Shown: positions 9,053 to 26,420 of the stretch, one piece after another | How positions within the stretch are numbered: the first letter of the stretch is position 1 | How the letters are laid out: the number at the start of each line of letters is the position of its first letter | From: Metallumcola ferriviriculae | GTDB lineage: Bacteria; Bacillota; JADQBR01 | Direction: 5' to 3' | DNA length: 64,000 nt | Assembly: GCF_035573695.1 (NCBI RefSeq) | Contig: NZ_CP121694.1 | Span: 1,588,501-1,652,500, forward strand | Notes under the pieces: model-generated | What the model saw: only the letters and a program-made list of their open reading frames with translations | What the model was told of the DNA's origin: nothing | Database searches by the model: none | Translations under genes and position numbers: made by a program

Positions 9053-9346
9053 GTGAAAAGCATTACATTATATGAGCCTGCCATGTGCTGCAGCACCGGT
9101 GTTTGTGGGCCCAGTCCGGACCAGGAATTGGTGAGAATGGCCGGCGACTTGAAAAAGTTAGCTGACCAGGGGGTAAAGGTGTACCGCTACAATCTTTCCC
9201 AGAGTCCAGAGGTTTTTGCCATCGACAAAACGGTAAAGACATTACTTAAGGAGCAAGGACAGAAAGTACTTCCCATTATCGTAGTGGATGGTGAGGTAAA
9301 ACTCACCGGCAGGTATCCCACAAAAGATGAACTGCGCAACTGGTAG
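9053..9346 (+). CDS. arsD: Arsenite metallochaperone ArsD
   Basis: A 97-residue ArsD. It binds As(III) and passes it to the ArsA ATPase. The N-terminal MCCSTGVCGPSPD (about residues 10-22) contains the three essential cysteines of the family (CC...C). The C-terminal vicinal Cys pairs of longer ArsDs are absent, which is common. The GTG at 9053 is chosen because GGAGGG ends 6 bases before it. An ATG two codons earlier directly abuts that Shine-Dalgarno sequence. The stop codon is part of the TAGGAGG site of arsA. Confidence 0.95.
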   Translation: MKSITLYEPAMCCSTGVCGPSPDQELVRMAGDLKKLADQGVKVYRYNLSQSPEVFAIDKTVKTLLKEQGQKVLPIIVVDGEVKLTGRYPTKDELRNW

Positions 9347-14659: not shown

Positions 14660-14685
14660 AATCAGGTAAAAAAAGGGGGGAGTCT

Positions 14686-14910
14686 ATGAGTAAGTGCAGC
14701 GAGTGCGGCCTGCTAGAGGACAAAGGGGATGCTGGGTATAAATGTTTTAAATATGGAAAGGAAATAAAGCAAGCGGATACCTTTCTGAGTACAGACTGCC
14801 TCTATTTCATCCAGCCTCAATATGAGGAAGGGGTGCCAATTCCCAAACAACAGCTGCTGCTGATAAAAGAGGCGGATCTGAAACGTAAAAAATTGCAAGG
14901 ACCGGTTTAG
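14686..14910 (+). CDS. Small Cys-rich protein, zinc-ribbon-like
   Basis: A 74-residue protein of unknown function. CSEC at residues 4-7, a Cys in YKCFKYGKE and another in STDCLYF could form a four-Cys metal site. The C-terminus is basic and charged. AAAAGGGGGG precedes the ATG. The stop codon is followed at once by the octamer TAGATCTA, which also marks a rearrangement junction at 16030. The 152 bases up to the next gene show nothing clear. Confidence 0.55.
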   Translation: MSKCSECGLLEDKGDAGYKCFKYGKEIKQADTFLSTDCLYFIQPQYEEGVPIPKQQLLLIKEADLKRKKLQGPV

Positions 14911-18885: not shown

Positions 18886-18959
18886 GATCATTACACTTTG
18901 TTAGCAGGTGACGCATGATTCCTAGCGAGAAATTTTTGGAAAAAAGAGGGGGCACTGCC

Positions 18960-19819
18960 TTGAATAATAAAGCATCAGCTACCAAACAGTACTCCACTGA
19001 AAACACTATCTGGAGCAGAACCTTTATTTTAATACTGGGTATTGCTCTGCTGGGTATGATGGGCGGGTCATTGCTGGGGCCGGTGCTGCCTGCCTTGGTT
19101 AGTCCATTTGGAATCATTGATGAACAGGTGGGAATGGTACTCGCTGTCTACACTGCTTCTACGGCTCTTTCAATGTCTTTTGTTGGTCCGTTAATAGACA
19201 AGTTGGGCCGCAAACAGGTGGTTCCGCCTTAATAATAAACGGCCTGGCAGGGTCGCTAGGGGGATTTGCACCAAACTTTACCGTAATGTTGATCCTCAGG
19301 GCAATTCAGGGTGTGGGGATTGCCGGGTTGCTGCCGGTAGCAATGACCTTAATCGGTGATTTTTTCAAAGGGGCACAGAAGGTCAAGGCTATGGGATATA
19401 TGAGCAGCACAATGGCCCTCGGTGCAGTAGTTGCCCCCATGATAGGCGGGGGTCTTGCCATGCTGAGCTGGCGTTTTTCCTTTTTATTCTATGCTGTAAG
19501 CATTCCGCTGGCAGTATCGATTGCTTTGGCTTCCTTCCAGTGAGACCAACAAGGATGTGGTTTGAGTTTGTTTTTCTTTGGAGCCGGCCTGGGGTTGATC
19601 ATGCCATTAATCAACACCATGGGTACAGATGCTGTACACCGTGAATATATCGGTGCCGCCACTTCTCTGTATAACTCCTTTACTTTTGTGGGCCAGTCCT
19701 CATCACCGCTGCTGCTGGGTTTGGTATTCAAATGGTTCGGGTTAGGTGCCGCTTTTTGGACAGCAGGGACAGCTGCGCTGCTGGGTGCGGCAGGTATAAT
19801 GGTTTTTAAAAAGAGGTAA
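18960..19819 (+). pseudogene. MFS transporter, frameshifted and internally deleted
   Basis: Three fragments of one MFS carrier. Fragment one (TTG at 18960 after AGAGGGGG) ends at LGRKQVVPP at 19232, where the loop 2-3 signature should continue. Adding one T at GTGGTT near 19219 restores VVSALIINGLAGSLGG. Fragment two (to about 19543) covers helices 3-6. Fragment three (from about 19562) covers the last three helices. Roughly 100 residues of helices 7-9 are missing at the GTGGTT-TGAG join near 19560. The internal deletion makes it a real pseudogene rather than only a sequencing error. Confidence 0.8.
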
Positions 19820-20150: not shown

Positions 20151-20179
20151 TTGACAGCTTTTTTTAAAAAAGTTATAAT
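20151..20179 (+). promoter_or_regulatory. Consensus sigma-A promoter of the amtB leader
   Basis: TTGACA at 20151-20156, a 17-bp spacer, then TATAAT at 20174-20179. Both hexamers are perfect. Transcription would start near 20186, about 345 bases before amtB. Such a strong promoter implies that control acts later, in the leader RNA. Confidence 0.9.
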
Positions 20180-20196
20180 TGTAATTAACAAAATAC

Positions 20197-20281
20197 ATTC
20201 GGGCAAGGTTGTCCGAATAAATGTATGGGCAAAGACGTCCTTGTAAAGTGCGTGGCACTTAACGAGGGCGTATTTTATTTT
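20197..20281 (+). promoter_or_regulatory. ANTAR-type tandem hairpins plus terminator (module 1)
   Basis: Hairpin P1 (20197-20218) has an 8-bp stem closing the hexaloop AAGGTT. Hairpin P2 (20227-20240) has a 4-bp stem closing AAAGAC. Both loops have A at position 1 and G at position 4, the known ANTAR-protein recognition pattern. The 3' arm of P2 overlaps the 5' arm (20235-20244) of a terminator whose 10-bp stem pairs with 20262-20271. That terminator has an inner AAGTGC/GCACTT hairpin and ends in TATTTTATTTT. P2 and the terminator cannot form together, which is the classic antitermination layout. Confidence 0.8.
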
Positions 20282-20399
20282 GGTCCAATTAAGGAGAATG
20301 TTCGGAAGGTCACCAAAGAACATGTATTTTAAAAGGGAGGTAGTTTATAAAGGCGAACAGATTTGTTACAAATGGTTAAGGTAATAATCTAAAACTGTG

Positions 20400-20475
20400 A
20401 GGTACAACGGTGTACTTTGTGATTATAAGAGGGCGACGGTGCTTTTCCTTTACTGGATTGAGTGCTGTTTTTTTT
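20400..20475 (+). promoter_or_regulatory. Second ANTAR-like tandem hairpins plus weak terminator (module 2)
   Basis: Hairpin P1 (20400-20417) has stem AGGTAC/GTACTT and hexaloop AACGGT (A1, G4). Hairpin P2 (20429-20446) has a G-T-rich stem and loop GACGGT, so G4 is kept but position 1 is G. A stem CGGTGCTT (20437-20444) with GAGTGCTG (20460-20467), containing several wobbles and followed by eight Ts, overlaps the 3' side of P2. The geometry copies module 1, but pairing is weaker. Confidence 0.55.
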
Positions 20476-20530
20476 GTAGTTAAAGAGAGTATAGATAAAC
20501 AAAAATAGTTTTTAAGGAGAAGGATTTCTT

Positions 20531-21853
20531 ATGTTAAAAATAGATACTGGTGATACTGCGTGGCTGCTTGTGTCAACAGCGTTTGTTTTCTTAATGATCA
20601 TGCCGGGCCTGGCGCTGTTTTATGGAGGTTTAGTACGTAAGAAAAATGTATTAAGTACAATTATGTATAGCTTTGCAGCCCTGATACTTATTTCTGTGGA
20701 GTGGGTTCTTGTAGGCTATTCCCTTTCCTTTGGTCCTGATAAATTTGGTCTTATCGGTGACCTGTCCTGGATTGGCTTAAGTGGTATAGGGGGGAGTCCA
20801 AATCCCGATTATGCTGCAACTATCCCCGCTTTAGTATTCGTGGCATTTCAAATGATGTTTGCAATTATTACACCTGCAATTATTTCTGGCTCTATTGCCG
20901 AAAGGATGCGTTTTAATGCATTTGCCTTGTTTATTTTATTTTGGGCAGTGGTTGCTTACAATCCAGTTGCTCATTGGGTATGGGGTGTGGGCGGCTGGAT
21001 AAGAGAACTTGGCGCTCTTGATTTTGCCGGTGGTACTGTTGTTCATATTTTGTCCGGTGTTTCCGCTTTGGTTGCTGCTTTAGTTCTTGGTAAAAGAAAA
21101 AGGGTAGGTAAAGAGCAGTTTGTCCCGCACAATATACCTATGGTAGTGATAGGTACAGGACTTTTATGGTTTGGATGGTTTGGCTTTAATGCCGGAAGTG
21201 CTCTTTCCGCAAATGGTTTGGCGGCATATGCTTTTATCAATACCAATACCGCAGCAGCTGCGGGCGCATTGGCATGGCTACTTGTTGAATGGAGTCATTA
21301 CGGCAAACCTACAAGTGTGGGGGCAGCCAGCGGCGCTGTTGCAGGCTTGGTTGCCATAACTCCTGCGGCGGGTTTTGTCACGCCGCTGGCATCCATTATA
21401 ATTGGCTTGATTGGTGGAGCTCTCTGCTATAATTCTGTCGCATTATTGAAGGCTAAACTAGGCTACGATGATGCCCTTGACGCATTTGGTATCCACGGTA
21501 TCGGGGGAACCTGGGGCGCGGTTGCCACCGGATTGTTTGCAACTACGACAATTAACGAAGCAGGTGCAAACGGTCTGTTTTATGGTGACGGATCTTTATT
21601 GACTAAGCAGTTGATAGCGGTAGCCGCAACCTATGCTATGGCCGCCGTATCAACCTTTCTTATATTAAAATTGGTATCGCTTATTGTTCCACTTAGAGCT
21701 AGTCAGGAAGAAGAAGAGGCCGGGCTGGATCAGTCATTGCACGGCGAAGAAGGCTACAGGGACTATTCTTTGGGGGTAACAGATCCCTCCTATTCCAGCA
21801 AATATAATCAGCTAAAAGTACCAGAGCAAGAAGGTTATTCTAGCACATCTTAA
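20531..21853 (+). CDS. amtB: Ammonium transporter AmtB
   Basis: A 440-residue ammonium channel with eleven hydrophobic segments. It has MPGLALFYGGLVRKKN at about residues 24-39, AGGTVVHILSGVSALVAAL with the first pore His, and DAFGIHGIGGTWGAVATGLF with the second pore His. The hydrophilic C-terminal tail of about 55 residues (EEEEAGLDQSLHGEEGYRDYS) is the part that contacts GlnK. AAGGAGAAGG precedes the ATG. It sits behind the strong promoter and the two-module leader, and a P-II gene follows, so expression is nitrogen-controlled. Confidence 0.95.
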   Translation: MLKIDTGDTAWLLVSTAFVFLMIMPGLALFYGGLVRKKNVLSTIMYSFAALILISVEWVLVGYSLSFGPDKFGLIGDLSWIGLSGIGGSPNPDYAATIPALVFVAFQMMFAIITPAIISGSIAERMRFNAFALFILFWAVVAYNPVAHWVWGVGGWIRELGALDFAGGTVVHILSGVSALVAALVLGKRKRVGKEQFVPHNIPMVVIGTGLLWFGWFGFNAGSALSANGLAAYAFINTNTAAAAGALAWLLVEWSHYGKPTSVGAASGAVAGLVAITPAAGFVTPLASIIIGLIGGALCYNSVALLKAKLGYDDALDAFGIHGIGGTWGAVATGLFATTTINEAGANGLFYGDGSLLTKQLIAVAATYAMAAVSTFLILKLVSLIVPLRASQEEEEAGLDQSLHGEEGYRDYSLGVTDPSYSSKYNQLKVPEQEGYSSTS

Positions 21854-21967: not shown

Positions 21968-22336
<369 letters not shown>

Positions 22337-22383: not shown

Positions 22384-22546
22384 CAATCTTTTGATAGATA
22401 GCTGAATCTGAGTAATGTGGGCCGAATGAAAAATTTGATTCCACGGAAGAACTTGTTTCCTATCAAAAAAAAATATCCTATGGGAAAGAGGAATTTTATC
22501 AAAGAGTGAGAATAGTACAAAATAACTAATAATTTAATATTGTTGC

Positions 22547-22714
22547 TAACAGGTGTCAAAGAGACTTAAAAGGGAAGTCCGTACCTTATTTAAAGGGAAC
22601 GGCACGGTCCCCGCCACTGTAAATGGGTAGCCTACTGCAAATGCCACTGGACTTTGTATAGTCCGGGAAGGCGCAGTGTGGCTTTGATCCATAGTCAGGA
22701 GACCTGCCTGTTAC
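22547..22714 (+). ncRNA. Cobalamin riboswitch
   Basis: The leader contains the B12-box elements in order: AACAGGTGTC, TTAAAAGGGAA, the conserved core ACGGTCCCCGCCACTGTAA, ATGCCACTGG, CCGGGAAGGCGCAGTG, and the closing AGTCAGGAGACCTGCCTGTT. These are hallmarks of the AdoCbl aptamer. Binding of adenosylcobalamin would favour the terminator at 22765 and switch off the whole cbi/cob operon. Confidence 0.97.
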
Positions 22715-22764
22715 AAACGTATCGTAATCCTACGGGTGATAGGGATGGCTATGTATTTTTGCCT

Positions 22765-22831: not shown

Positions 22832-23518
22832 ATGCATTTGCCGGAGATGTCGCTGCCAGTTCAATGGGCTGCCGGTTGGTTTGGCTTGTCTTTACCGGCG
22901 GTTTTGGTAGGGATGAAGCGACTGAAAAAAAGAGCAAAGGAGGATAAATTGGTTAAACCTTTAGTGGGTTTAATGGCAGCAACCGTATTTATAATATCTC
23001 TTTTTCCCATTCCACTGCCTTATGGAACCAGCTCTCATGCTATCGGGACGCCTTTGGCTGCCATTATTGTAGGACCATGGATGGCAACATTATTAAGCGT
23101 TATTGCTCTTTTTCTGCAAGCGGTTTTCTTTGCCCATGGTGGGTTGACCACTCTTGGCGCTAATGTCTTTTCTATGGGTATAGTCGGTTCCTTTGTATCA
23201 TATGGTTTGTTTAAATCATTACGAAAAATGCAACTGCCCCTAGTATTGGCAGTAGGAATTTCGGCGTTTGTTGGAGATTTGGCAGTATATTTGGTAACAT
23301 CTTTGCAATTGGCTTTGGCATTACACGATACAAAACCTCTTTGGGATGTTTGGGTGAAGTTTTTATTAATCTTTATGCCCACCCAATTACCACTGGCTCT
23401 GGTGGAAGGCATCTTTACCGGTGGAGTATTTGGTTATTTAAAACAAATCAGGCCGGATATACTGTTAAGAATTGGTTTGAATTTCAAACAAGCGGGTGAT
23501 GGTAATGAGACCCTATAA
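22832..23518 (+). CDS. cbiM: Cobalt ECF transporter membrane component CbiM
   Basis: A 228-residue membrane protein that starts MHLPE. The N-terminal Met-His that ligates Co(II) in CbiM is kept. HAIGTPLAAIIVGPWMATLL and FFAHGGLTTLGANVFSMGIVG (about residues 69-117) are the family signatures, with further metal-site histidines. It takes up cobalt as the substrate-binding component with CbiN, CbiQ and CbiO encoded next. AAAGGAGGAC precedes the ATG. First gene after the riboswitch. Confidence 0.95.
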   Translation: MHLPEMSLPVQWAAGWFGLSLPAVLVGMKRLKKRAKEDKLVKPLVGLMAATVFIISLFPIPLPYGTSSHAIGTPLAAIIVGPWMATLLSVIALFLQAVFFAHGGLTTLGANVFSMGIVGSFVSYGLFKSLRKMQLPLVLAVGISAFVGDLAVYLVTSLQLALALHDTKPLWDVWVKFLLIFMPTQLPLALVEGIFTGGVFGYLKQIRPDILLRIGLNFKQAGDGNETL

Positions 23519-23774: not shown

Positions 23775-24475
23775 AACATAAGCTCTATTTTAATGATACC
23801 TGGGCATATCGGGATTCCGTGGTTCGTTATGTTGACCCGCGAATCAAATTAGTAACGGCTACGGCTGGGATATTATTTTTGTTTGGCGCAGGCATTTACG
23901 GCTCTCTGGCCATATTAACTACGGTATTTGCAGGGGTAATACTTCTTGGGTATCCAATACGTTTTTTTATGGCCCGGCTAGGTTTACCTTTGGTGATTGC
24001 TATTTTCTTTATGTTGACTAAAGCGATAATGGTGGGCCAAACTCCCTTGGTTAGTTGGTCTTTAGGTGGCATCAAAGCTTCTATTTTTATAGAAGGTGTG
24101 CATGAGGGATTAGTATTGGCCCTTCGCATTATTTCAGGGGTTTCGCTGATCACAATTTTCAGTATTGTCACATCAATGGCCGAATTTATTTCCGCTGCCA
24201 GCTGGTTTCATGTACCGGCAGTACTGCTGGAAACACTGGTTTTATGTTATCGTTACATATTTATTCTCTTACTGGAGGCGGCACGTCTACATAATGCTCA
24301 GCAGTTACGTCTGGGTCATGATACCTGGAGGCATTCTTTTGTTAACACTATAAAGCTGGGGGCATTGGTGCTGGTTAGAGCATTGGATAAAGCGGAAATT
24401 TCTGCCCAAGCTATGCAGTTAAGGGGTTATGAGGATAGTTTTCCCCTGGATACTTTTGAAAGGAGACGGAAATGA
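23771..24475 (+). CDS. cbiQ: Cobalt ECF transporter transmembrane protein CbiQ
   Basis: A 234-residue coupling protein. DPRIKLVTATAGILFLFG at about residues 23-40 and the late cytoplasmic motif RALDKAEISAQAMQLRGY (about 202-219), with the Ala-Arg-Gly pattern that contacts the ATPase, identify it. The start is TTG at 23771, overlapping the stop of cbiN, with AGGAGGGAGCAGG upstream. Confidence 0.93.
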   Translation: MKHKLYFNDTWAYRDSVVRYVDPRIKLVTATAGILFLFGAGIYGSLAILTTVFAGVILLGYPIRFFMARLGLPLVIAIFFMLTKAIMVGQTPLVSWSLGGIKASIFIEGVHEGLVLALRIISGVSLITIFSIVTSMAEFISAASWFHVPAVLLETLVLCYRYIFILLLEAARLHNAQQLRLGHDTWRHSFVNTIKLGALVLVRALDKAEISAQAMQLRGYEDSFPLDTFERRRK

Positions 24476-24476
24476 T

Positions 24477-26420
24477 TTGGCGCTAATAGATATTAATAAA
24501 CTTTCCTATAAATATGCCGGCAGCATCAGCGCATTGGAATCAGTAAATCTAACTGTATGGCCGGGTGAATTTTTAGCGGTACTTGGCCGTAACGGGTCAG
24601 GTAAAACCACCCTTTTTAAGCTGCTTACAGGGATTTTAGATATTCAAGAAGGGGAAATAAAAATGGGCGATACGCCGTTGGATGATATATCAAAGCGGGA
24701 ATTGCACAGGCGCATCGGTTTTGTTTTCCAAGACCCCAATGATCAGTTACTGGCTCCCACCGTGGCCCAGGACGTAGCTTTTGGTCCGGCAAATATGGGT
24801 TTGCCTAAGGATGAAATTTTTCGTCGGGTACAGCAAAGCCTGGCGGTGGTTGGGCTGGAAGGTTTTGAACATCGCCCCATTCATATGCTGAGCTTCGGCC
24901 AAAAGAAAAGAGTGGCAGTGGCTGGGGTGTTGGCTATGGAGCCGGAAATACTTATTTTGGATGAGCCCACAGCAGGGCTGGACCCGGTTGCTGTCAGCGA
25001 TCTGATGAAATTAGTGCTTCGTCTTAACCAGGAACGAGGTTTGACGGTTATTTTCTCAACCCACGATGTGGAACTGGTGCCGGTATATGCTCATCGAGTA
25101 CTTATTCTGGAGCGAGGCACTATGGTATTGGAGGGCAATCCCGAGACAGTTTTTAATAACAGAGAGGCGTTACGGCAGGCAGGGTTGAGGCTGCCGCGAA
25201 TTGGCCATCTGTTTGAGGTAATAGAAAAACATCATGGTTGGCGTTTTCACGATGATATCCCTCTTACTATCGGGCAAGCCTGGCGTACCCTGCTTTATAC
25301 AGGAACCAAGCCTCAAAAGCGCCGCTGGCGTAAAGGTTATACTACCGGTTCCTGTGCCGCCGCTGCGGCCAAAGGGGCGACTGCGCTGCTTCTAACCAAA
25401 GAAAATTTAGATAAAATTTCTATTTATACTCCTTCAGGTGTAATGCTAAACCTGGGTGTTCACGACTGCATTGTTGGTAACCATACCGCCAGTTGCAGCG
25501 TGATCAAAGATGCGGGCGATGACCCGGATATCACTGACGGTATTAAGGTTTTTGCCCAGGCAAGTTTGGCCGAGGCCCCCGGGATAACCATTACTACCGG
25601 GGAAGGGGTAGGTACAGTGACGAAACCCGGATTGGCAGTGGCTGTGGGGGAACCTGCCATAAACCCGGTGCCTCGCCGGATGATTGAAGAGGCTGTACGG
25701 TCAGTAATAACCGCTGATCAAGGTATAAACATAAAAGTCTGGGTGCCGGGAGGCGAACAGGTTGCTGCGAGAACTCTTAACCCCCAATTGGGCATCAAGG
25801 GCGGAATTTCCCTTCTGGGAACTACCGGAATTGTTGAGCCCATGTCTGAGGAAGCCTTTAAAAACTCACTGGTACCGCAAATTAAGGTGGCCTTAGCCCA
25901 AGGGGAGGATACTATAGTACTTACTCCGGGCCGAATAGGACAAAAGCACGCCCATGCATTGGGTATCCCTGAGCAGGCCGTGGTTCAAATGAGTAATTTT
26001 GTCGGGTATATGCTGGACCAAAGTGTGGTTTCGGGGGTTAGAAGAATAGTATTGTGCGGACATTTAGGGAAATTGGCAAAGGTGGCCGCAGGGATTTTCC
26101 ATACCCACAGTAAAATGGCAGATGCCAGATTAGAGGCGATAATTGTTGAGGCGGCTCTATCAGGGGTGCGGCAGGAGGTTCTGGAGACTTTAGCCCAATG
26201 CGTTACCGCTGAGGCGGCTATTCCTGTATTAAAGGAGCATGATTTAGCCCCTGTTCTTTATAAGCTAGCGGGCAGGATATCTGCCAGGGCGCAGCAAAGA
26301 ATTCACGGGAAGTTGGAAGTTGGAAGCATACTGCTTTCATTAAAAGGTGAAGTAGTGGGTTTTGATGCCAACGCGTTGGCCATAGGGAGGAGTAAACAAT
26401 GGTATTCCCAATTACCGTAG
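24477..26420 (+). CDS. cbiOD: Fused CbiO ATPase and CbiD C1-methyltransferase
   Basis: A 647-residue protein made of two normally separate proteins. Residues 1-275 are CbiO, with Walker A GRNGSGKTT at 37-45, Q-loop FQDPNDQL, signature LSFGQKKR, Walker B ILILDEPTAGLDP and the switch His in FSTHD. A basic linker of about 10-15 residues (GTKPQKRRWRKG) joins it to CbiD from about 284. CbiD begins YTTGSCAAAAAKGA and has LTPGRIGQKHA and NFVGYMLDQ in its second half. CbiD methylates C1 of cobalt-precorrin-5B. TTG at 24477 after AAGGAGA is chosen. No stop or frame change lies between the halves. Confidence 0.9.
   Translation: MALIDINKLSYKYAGSISALESVNLTVWPGEFLAVLGRNGSGKTTLFKLLTGILDIQEGEIKMGDTPLDDISKRELHRRIGFVFQDPNDQLLAPTVAQDVAFGPANMGLPKDEIFRRVQQSLAVVGLEGFEHRPIHMLSFGQKKRVAVAGVLAMEPEILILDEPTAGLDPVAVSDLMKLVLRLNQERGLTVIFSTHDVELVPVYAHRVLILERGTMVLEGNPETVFNNREALRQAGLRLPRIGHLFEVIEKHHGWRFHDDIPLTIGQAWRTLLYTGTKPQKRRWRKGYTTGSCAAAAAKGATALLLTKENLDKISIYTPSGVMLNLGVHDCIVGNHTASCSVIKDAGDDPDITDGIKVFAQASLAEAPGITITTGEGVGTVTKPGLAVAVGEPAINPVPRRMIEEAVRSVITADQGINIKVWVPGGEQVAARTLNPQLGIKGGISLLGTTGIVEPMSEEAFKNSLVPQIKVALAQGEDTIVLTPGRIGQKHAHALGIPEQAVVQMSNFVGYMLDQSVVSGVRRIVLCGHLGKLAKVAAGIFHTHSKMADARLEAIIVEAALSGVRQEVLETLAQCVTAEAAIPVLKEHDLAPVLYKLAGRISARAQQRIHGKLEVGSILLSLKGEVVGFDANALAIGRSKQWYSQLP

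Follow-up and report, generated by a model that had tools for sequence, protein, structure and literature searches.

The window analysed here, a 64-kb stretch of the Metallumcola ferriviriculae genome, contains on the plus strand the ammonium transporter gene amtB (20531-21853; PF00909, E 2.9e-133), with a gene for a glnK-type P-II protein located 3' of it (21998-22336; PF00543, E 2.4e-30). The amtB leader is preceded by a SigA/sigma-70-type promoter, TTGACA-17-TATAAT (20151-20179, plus strand), which matches the consensus at 12 of 12 positions, as claimed in an initial sequence-only reading of this DNA. Upstream of the promoter, an MFS-type transporter appears to be split into three plus-strand frames (18915-19232, 19286-19543 and 19562-19819), apparently a broken gene or the result of sequence errors. 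On the other side of the locus, a cobalamin riboswitch (RF00174, 106.5 bits; 22534-22725, plus strand) is followed, from position 22832 onward, by genes that resemble a cluster for cobalt transport and cobalamin synthesis; a 663-aa frame in this region (24429-26420, plus strand) looks, as judged from its sequence only, like a fusion of a CbiO-type ABC ATPase with a CbiD-type protein.

The amtB leader contains two complete ANTAR-type modules, both on the plus strand, which confirms the initial observation. Module 1 (approximately 20197-20281) starts with the P1 hairpin ATTCGGGC(AAGGTT)GTCCGAAT, with an 8-bp stem (20197-20218), followed by the P2 hairpin GGGC(AAAGAC)GTCC, with the 4-bp stem GGGC/GTCC (20227-20240). 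Both hexaloops, previously noted in the sequence, were recovered by the hairpin scan and by folding, and both carry A at position 1 and G at position 4 (A1/G4). The intrinsic terminator of this module (20235-20281), delineated by MFE folding and forced-fold comparison, consists of a stem at 20235-20271 and the tail ATTTTATTTT, and re-uses the 3' strand of P2. The linker between P1 and P2 is 8 nt long in module 1 and, depending on which of two stem definitions is applied, 7-8 nt long in module 2; this length suits ANTAR targets, among which the eut genes of Enterococcus faecalis span 5-12 nt.

The spacer between the modules (20282-20396, plus strand), read from the sequence, holds a doubtful reading frame of 28 codons (20297-20383), with a badly spaced AAGGAG only 1 base from the ATG; no counterpart of this frame was seen in the leaders of relatives. 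Module 2 (approximately 20397-20475) begins 201 nt from the start of module 1, in line with the reported recurrence about 200 bases on, and comprises the P1 hairpin GTGAGGTAC(AACGGT)GTACTTTGT, with a 9-bp stem (20397-20420), the P2 hairpin GAGGGC(GACGGT)GCTTTT, with a 6-bp stem (20429-20446), and an intrinsic terminator (20435-20475) with a stem at 20435-20469 and eight T at 20468-20475, which re-uses the loop and the 3' strand of P2. The A1/G4 pattern holds for both loops of module 1 and for P1 of module 2, but not for P2 of module 2, the hexaloop of which is G1/G4; in both modules, the loops are closed by C-G pairs. Module 2 is weaker than module 1 but clear: its covariance model match (20400-20445) scores 33.2 bits, compared to 40.4 bits for module 1 (20199-20241), and the stem of its terminator is rich in G-U pairs, so that its earlier description as the weaker of the two is borne out.

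Free folding picks the terminator in both modules. Forcing P1 and P2 to form costs approximately 8 kcal/mol in module 1 (-28.1 vs -35.8) and approximately 11 kcal/mol in module 2 (-11.0 vs -22.3), which fits a mechanism in which the binding of a protein offsets the cost of the antiterminator. Given these costs and the overlap of the two structures, P2 and the terminator are mutually exclusive in both modules, as had been proposed for the first. Such arrangements rarely arise by chance: a scan for dual hairpins with a terminator yielded 1 match when the whole window was shuffled 20 times and both strands were searched, and among 5000 dinucleotide shuffles of the 345-base leader, 1 contained a single module and none contained two.

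A covariance model trained on other genomes only, with no sequence of this genome (R2), was run over the whole 3.72-Mb genome. Module 1 ranked first (E 4.8e-7), the glnA leader second (5.4e-6) and module 2 third (3.5e-4), which answers the proposal that the leader be checked with such models. A second model that includes rows from this genome (R1) adds the leader of amtB2, in the second amtB-glnK operon (L003, approximately 14660-14785, minus strand). This leader is also doubled, with the second, weaker module located about 70 nt downstream of the first and provided with its own terminator. Further downstream, an inverted repeat with imperfect pairing and the hexaloop AGTGGT, but lacking a T run, may be the vestige of a third module.

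Elements of this type were found at E <=0.05 in at least 84 of 399 genomes sampled from the phylum; the count is a minimum, given the small number of candidates scored in each genome. They precede glnA, gltB and other GOGAT genes, amtB, asnB and ANTAR genes, and nearly all of those collected are followed by a terminator overlapping P2. Among the 107 distinct elements, G4 is present in 105 P1 loops and in all 107 P2 loops, and A1 in 93 and 94, respectively; the loop is closed by a C-G pair in 104 (P1) and 101 (P2) elements, and the P1-P2 linker, by a fixed-stem measure, is mostly 3-11 nt long. The G1 of the module 2 P2 loop is a natural variant by this standard because G1 also occurs in 13 of the 107 P2 loops and 14 of the 107 P1 loops. 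Close orthologs of this very leader were not found, and covariation was assessed across the element family. In the 17 seed modules, 95.7% of the paired cells are standard pairs, and two-sided changes occur in 9 of the 11 pairs, amounting to 47 such cells compared to 15.5 in shuffles, a family-level signal that is inflated to some extent because the seeds were partly chosen for their stems. Compensatory changes, the absence of which had been named as an argument against the ANTAR interpretation, are thus far more frequent than in the shuffles. Given that Rfam release 15 reported nothing relevant at the modules, whether searched at gathering or at permissive thresholds, the approximately 100 elements collected would be useful as support for an Rfam family.

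The elements co-occur with ANTAR proteins. An ANTAR domain scoring over the cut-off was detected in 29 of 32 element-bearing genomes of the phylum vs 9 of 21 element-free ones (Fisher p 3e-4), and in the three element-bearing genomes without such a domain, the elements are marginal (E 0.02-0.04). Across the phylum, the element is also often present in the leaders of ANTAR genes (16 such leaders), which suggests widespread autoregulation. In the present genome, P2-like elements with a terminator but without a clear P1 were observed before the gene for ANTAR1 (a hexaloop hairpin at L003 10017-10049, minus strand) and between the gene for ANTAR2 and a glutamate synthase-like gene (L004, approximately 9172-9235, plus strand); these are possible instances of autoregulation or reduced modules.

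In filtered genome searches, which score only a small number of candidates in each genome, the present genome appeared to be the only one with serial pairs, an impression that was overturned by unfiltered covariance-model searches of the flanks of each element. In the unfiltered searches, two or more matches were obtained in 9 of 16 amtB leaders vs 5 of 100 other leaders (Fisher p 2e-6, a value that ignores relatedness); one of the latter five actually lies upstream of the second amtB of genome G004, which changes the counts to 10 of 17 vs 4 of 99. Two full dual-hairpin modules in series, that is, with P1, P2 and terminator in both modules by our judgement of the sequences, are present in 7 of the 17 amtB leaders and in none of the 99 others. 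The seven full pairs, which represent five families, precede amtB1 and amtB2 of the present genome, two genes in G004, and one each in G209, G059 and G033; an eighth, weaker serial pair precedes amtB in G013, and two weak pairs in L024 were left out of the full count. Single-module amtB leaders exist as well, for example, in G001, G048, G208 and G037. The AmtB proteins encoded behind doubled leaders form two subfamilies that are about 37% identical, so the doubling spans more than one amtB lineage and is a recurrent design of this switch at amtB.

In several other leaders, a full module is accompanied by a P2 hairpin that has its own terminator but no P1, and these were left out of the full-module count. 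They were observed before gltB (L172 2251-2355, minus strand; L176 6331-6427, plus strand), glnA (L213 506-589 and L215 589-674, both plus strand) and amtB (L205 547-642, plus strand). Because EutV binds single hexaloops (PMC8934654), the P1-less partners may be single-hairpin attenuators.

Taken together, these observations make it very probable that the amtB-glnK leader comprises two ANTAR-responsive transcription attenuators in series. After initiation at the consensus promoter, RNA polymerase would stop by default at terminator 1, and polymerases leaking past it would be stopped at terminator 2. Under the inducing condition, presumably nitrogen limitation, an active response-regulator/ANTAR protein would bind the hexaloops of each module and keep P2 as a hairpin, so that the terminators would be blocked and amtB-glnK transcribed. 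In the model developed for EutV, as presented in PMC3369931 and PMC8934654, an activated ANTAR dimer likewise contacts the hexaloops, stabilizes P2 and prevents formation of the terminator. Full expression would need both modules bound; with two sites to be passed by every transcript, the basal read-through is predicted to equal the two leaks multiplied, and the response to be steeper than with one site. Graded or AND-type control, as suggested in the sequence-only reading, is plausible: one protein serving both modules would produce a tight, steeper gate, whereas two proteins, each serving one module, would produce an AND gate.

The absence of an ANTAR protein would have counted against this model; the genome encodes two (PF03861, 82.7 and 79.1 bits), both with a receiver and an ANTAR domain (Pfam; E 1e-22 and 3e-22). 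The ANTAR1 gene immediately precedes glnA and the GOGAT genes and is near the second amtB-glnK pair, and the ANTAR2 gene is upstream of an FMN-type glutamate synthase-like gene; no sensor kinase adjoins either gene in the stretches that were read. The closest solved relatives of ANTAR1 are Rv1626 (1s8n) and EutV (6wsh). In the alignment, the Asp and Lys residues are kept in the receiver of ANTAR1 but the acidic pair and the conserved Thr are missing, whereas the receiver of ANTAR2 has kept Thr, Asp, Lys and one acidic residue. The inputs of the two proteins therefore probably differ, if these residues play their usual roles in receiver domains. At the RNA-contact positions of EutV (PMC8934654), both proteins keep Arg142, Lys143, Lys149, Glu160 and Met172, and they differ at contacts 164, 168, 173 and 175 (Tyr, Arg, Asn and Cys in ANTAR1; Phe, Gln, Gln and Arg in ANTAR2). 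Most of these differences are kept in another genus, with the exception of ANTAR2 of G001, which has Arg at position 168.

These differences in contacts and in likely inputs are compatible with an AND gate, in which each module would be read by a different ANTAR protein and amtB would open only when both signals are present, as is the finding that all six doubled genomes in which ANTAR genes were counted (the present one, G004, G013, G033, G059 and G209) have at least two. Nevertheless, we consider such a gate unlikely. Contacts 173 and 175 touch the RNA backbone and so do not predict loop preference, and G001 has two ANTAR proteins yet a single-module amtB leader. Moreover, the first and second modules show no consistent sequence difference across the seven doubled leaders; a candidate class difference, with loops ending in GAC or GGT, held in three leaders and failed in others. 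This lack of a consistent difference favors a gate operated by a single protein. It is equally doubtful that paralogous regulators, one with a near-canonical and the other with a degenerate receiver, form an RNA-level AND gate that has arisen repeatedly before amtB.

Somewhat less likely still is that module 1 alone works, module 2 being either a degenerated copy or simply a leaky terminator. The lower score of module 2, the G1 of its P2 loop and its G-U-rich terminator would fit such decay, but the independent model places it third genome-wide, it retains both C-G closing pairs, both G4 and the eight T, G1 occurs in approximately 12% of the family loops, and amtB leaders of other families also have second modules. 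That the hairpins arose by chance or belong to another attenuator (PyrR, T-box or riboswitch) is hardly credible, given the shuffle controls, the independent covariance model, the nitrogen genes downstream of the elements phylum-wide and the ANTAR proteins present, even though Rfam gives no ANTAR family match: the best weak match, the PyrR-binding RNA (RF00515; E 4.4), spans module 1 only and, at 18.4 bits, is under the gathering threshold of 54.

Two ANTAR-responsive attenuators in series would thus control amtB-glnK, and the doubled arrangement apparently makes the control of ammonium uptake leak-proof or steeper. In this lineage, ammonium uptake would share its RNA-level antitermination with glnA and the GOGAT genes, and the recurrence of the doubling at amtB provides a natural setting in which to ask why the gene for a transporter should require tighter or steeper control than those for the assimilation enzymes.

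Among the known systems, the eut leaders of E. faecalis, with EutV/EutW, have the same module anatomy and the same inferred mechanism. The eut modules precede separate genes of the locus and respond to ethanolamine via a sensor kinase, unlike the present case, where the regulators have no adjacent kinase. The Klebsiella nasF leader with NasR and the Pseudomonas amiE leader with AmiR share the dual-hairpin antiterminator and the nitrogen theme, but are single modules with other input domains. Tandem riboswitches and tandem T-boxes also place two attenuators in series and yield a steeper or combined response; they differ in relying on a ligand-binding RNA rather than on an RNA-binding protein. 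Also close are the ANTAR targets of Firmicutes nitrogen genes, published in 2012 and including elements before ammonium transporters (Ramesh et al. 2012, PMC3369931). As described in that paper, these have dual A1/G4 hexaloop hairpins, a P2 that overlaps an intrinsic terminator, nitrogen-metabolism genes downstream and an ANTAR protein in the genome; in Desulfotomaculum acetoxidans, at least 13 elements are distributed over six transcription units, which implies several elements per unit. No description of serial modules in one leader was found in the searchable texts, including the main text of this paper. The present system differs from those described there in having two complete modules in one leader before one gene, an arrangement concentrated at amtB. 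Thus, the element and its mechanism are already known, and, as far as these texts extend, the recurrent serial doubling at amtB looks new.
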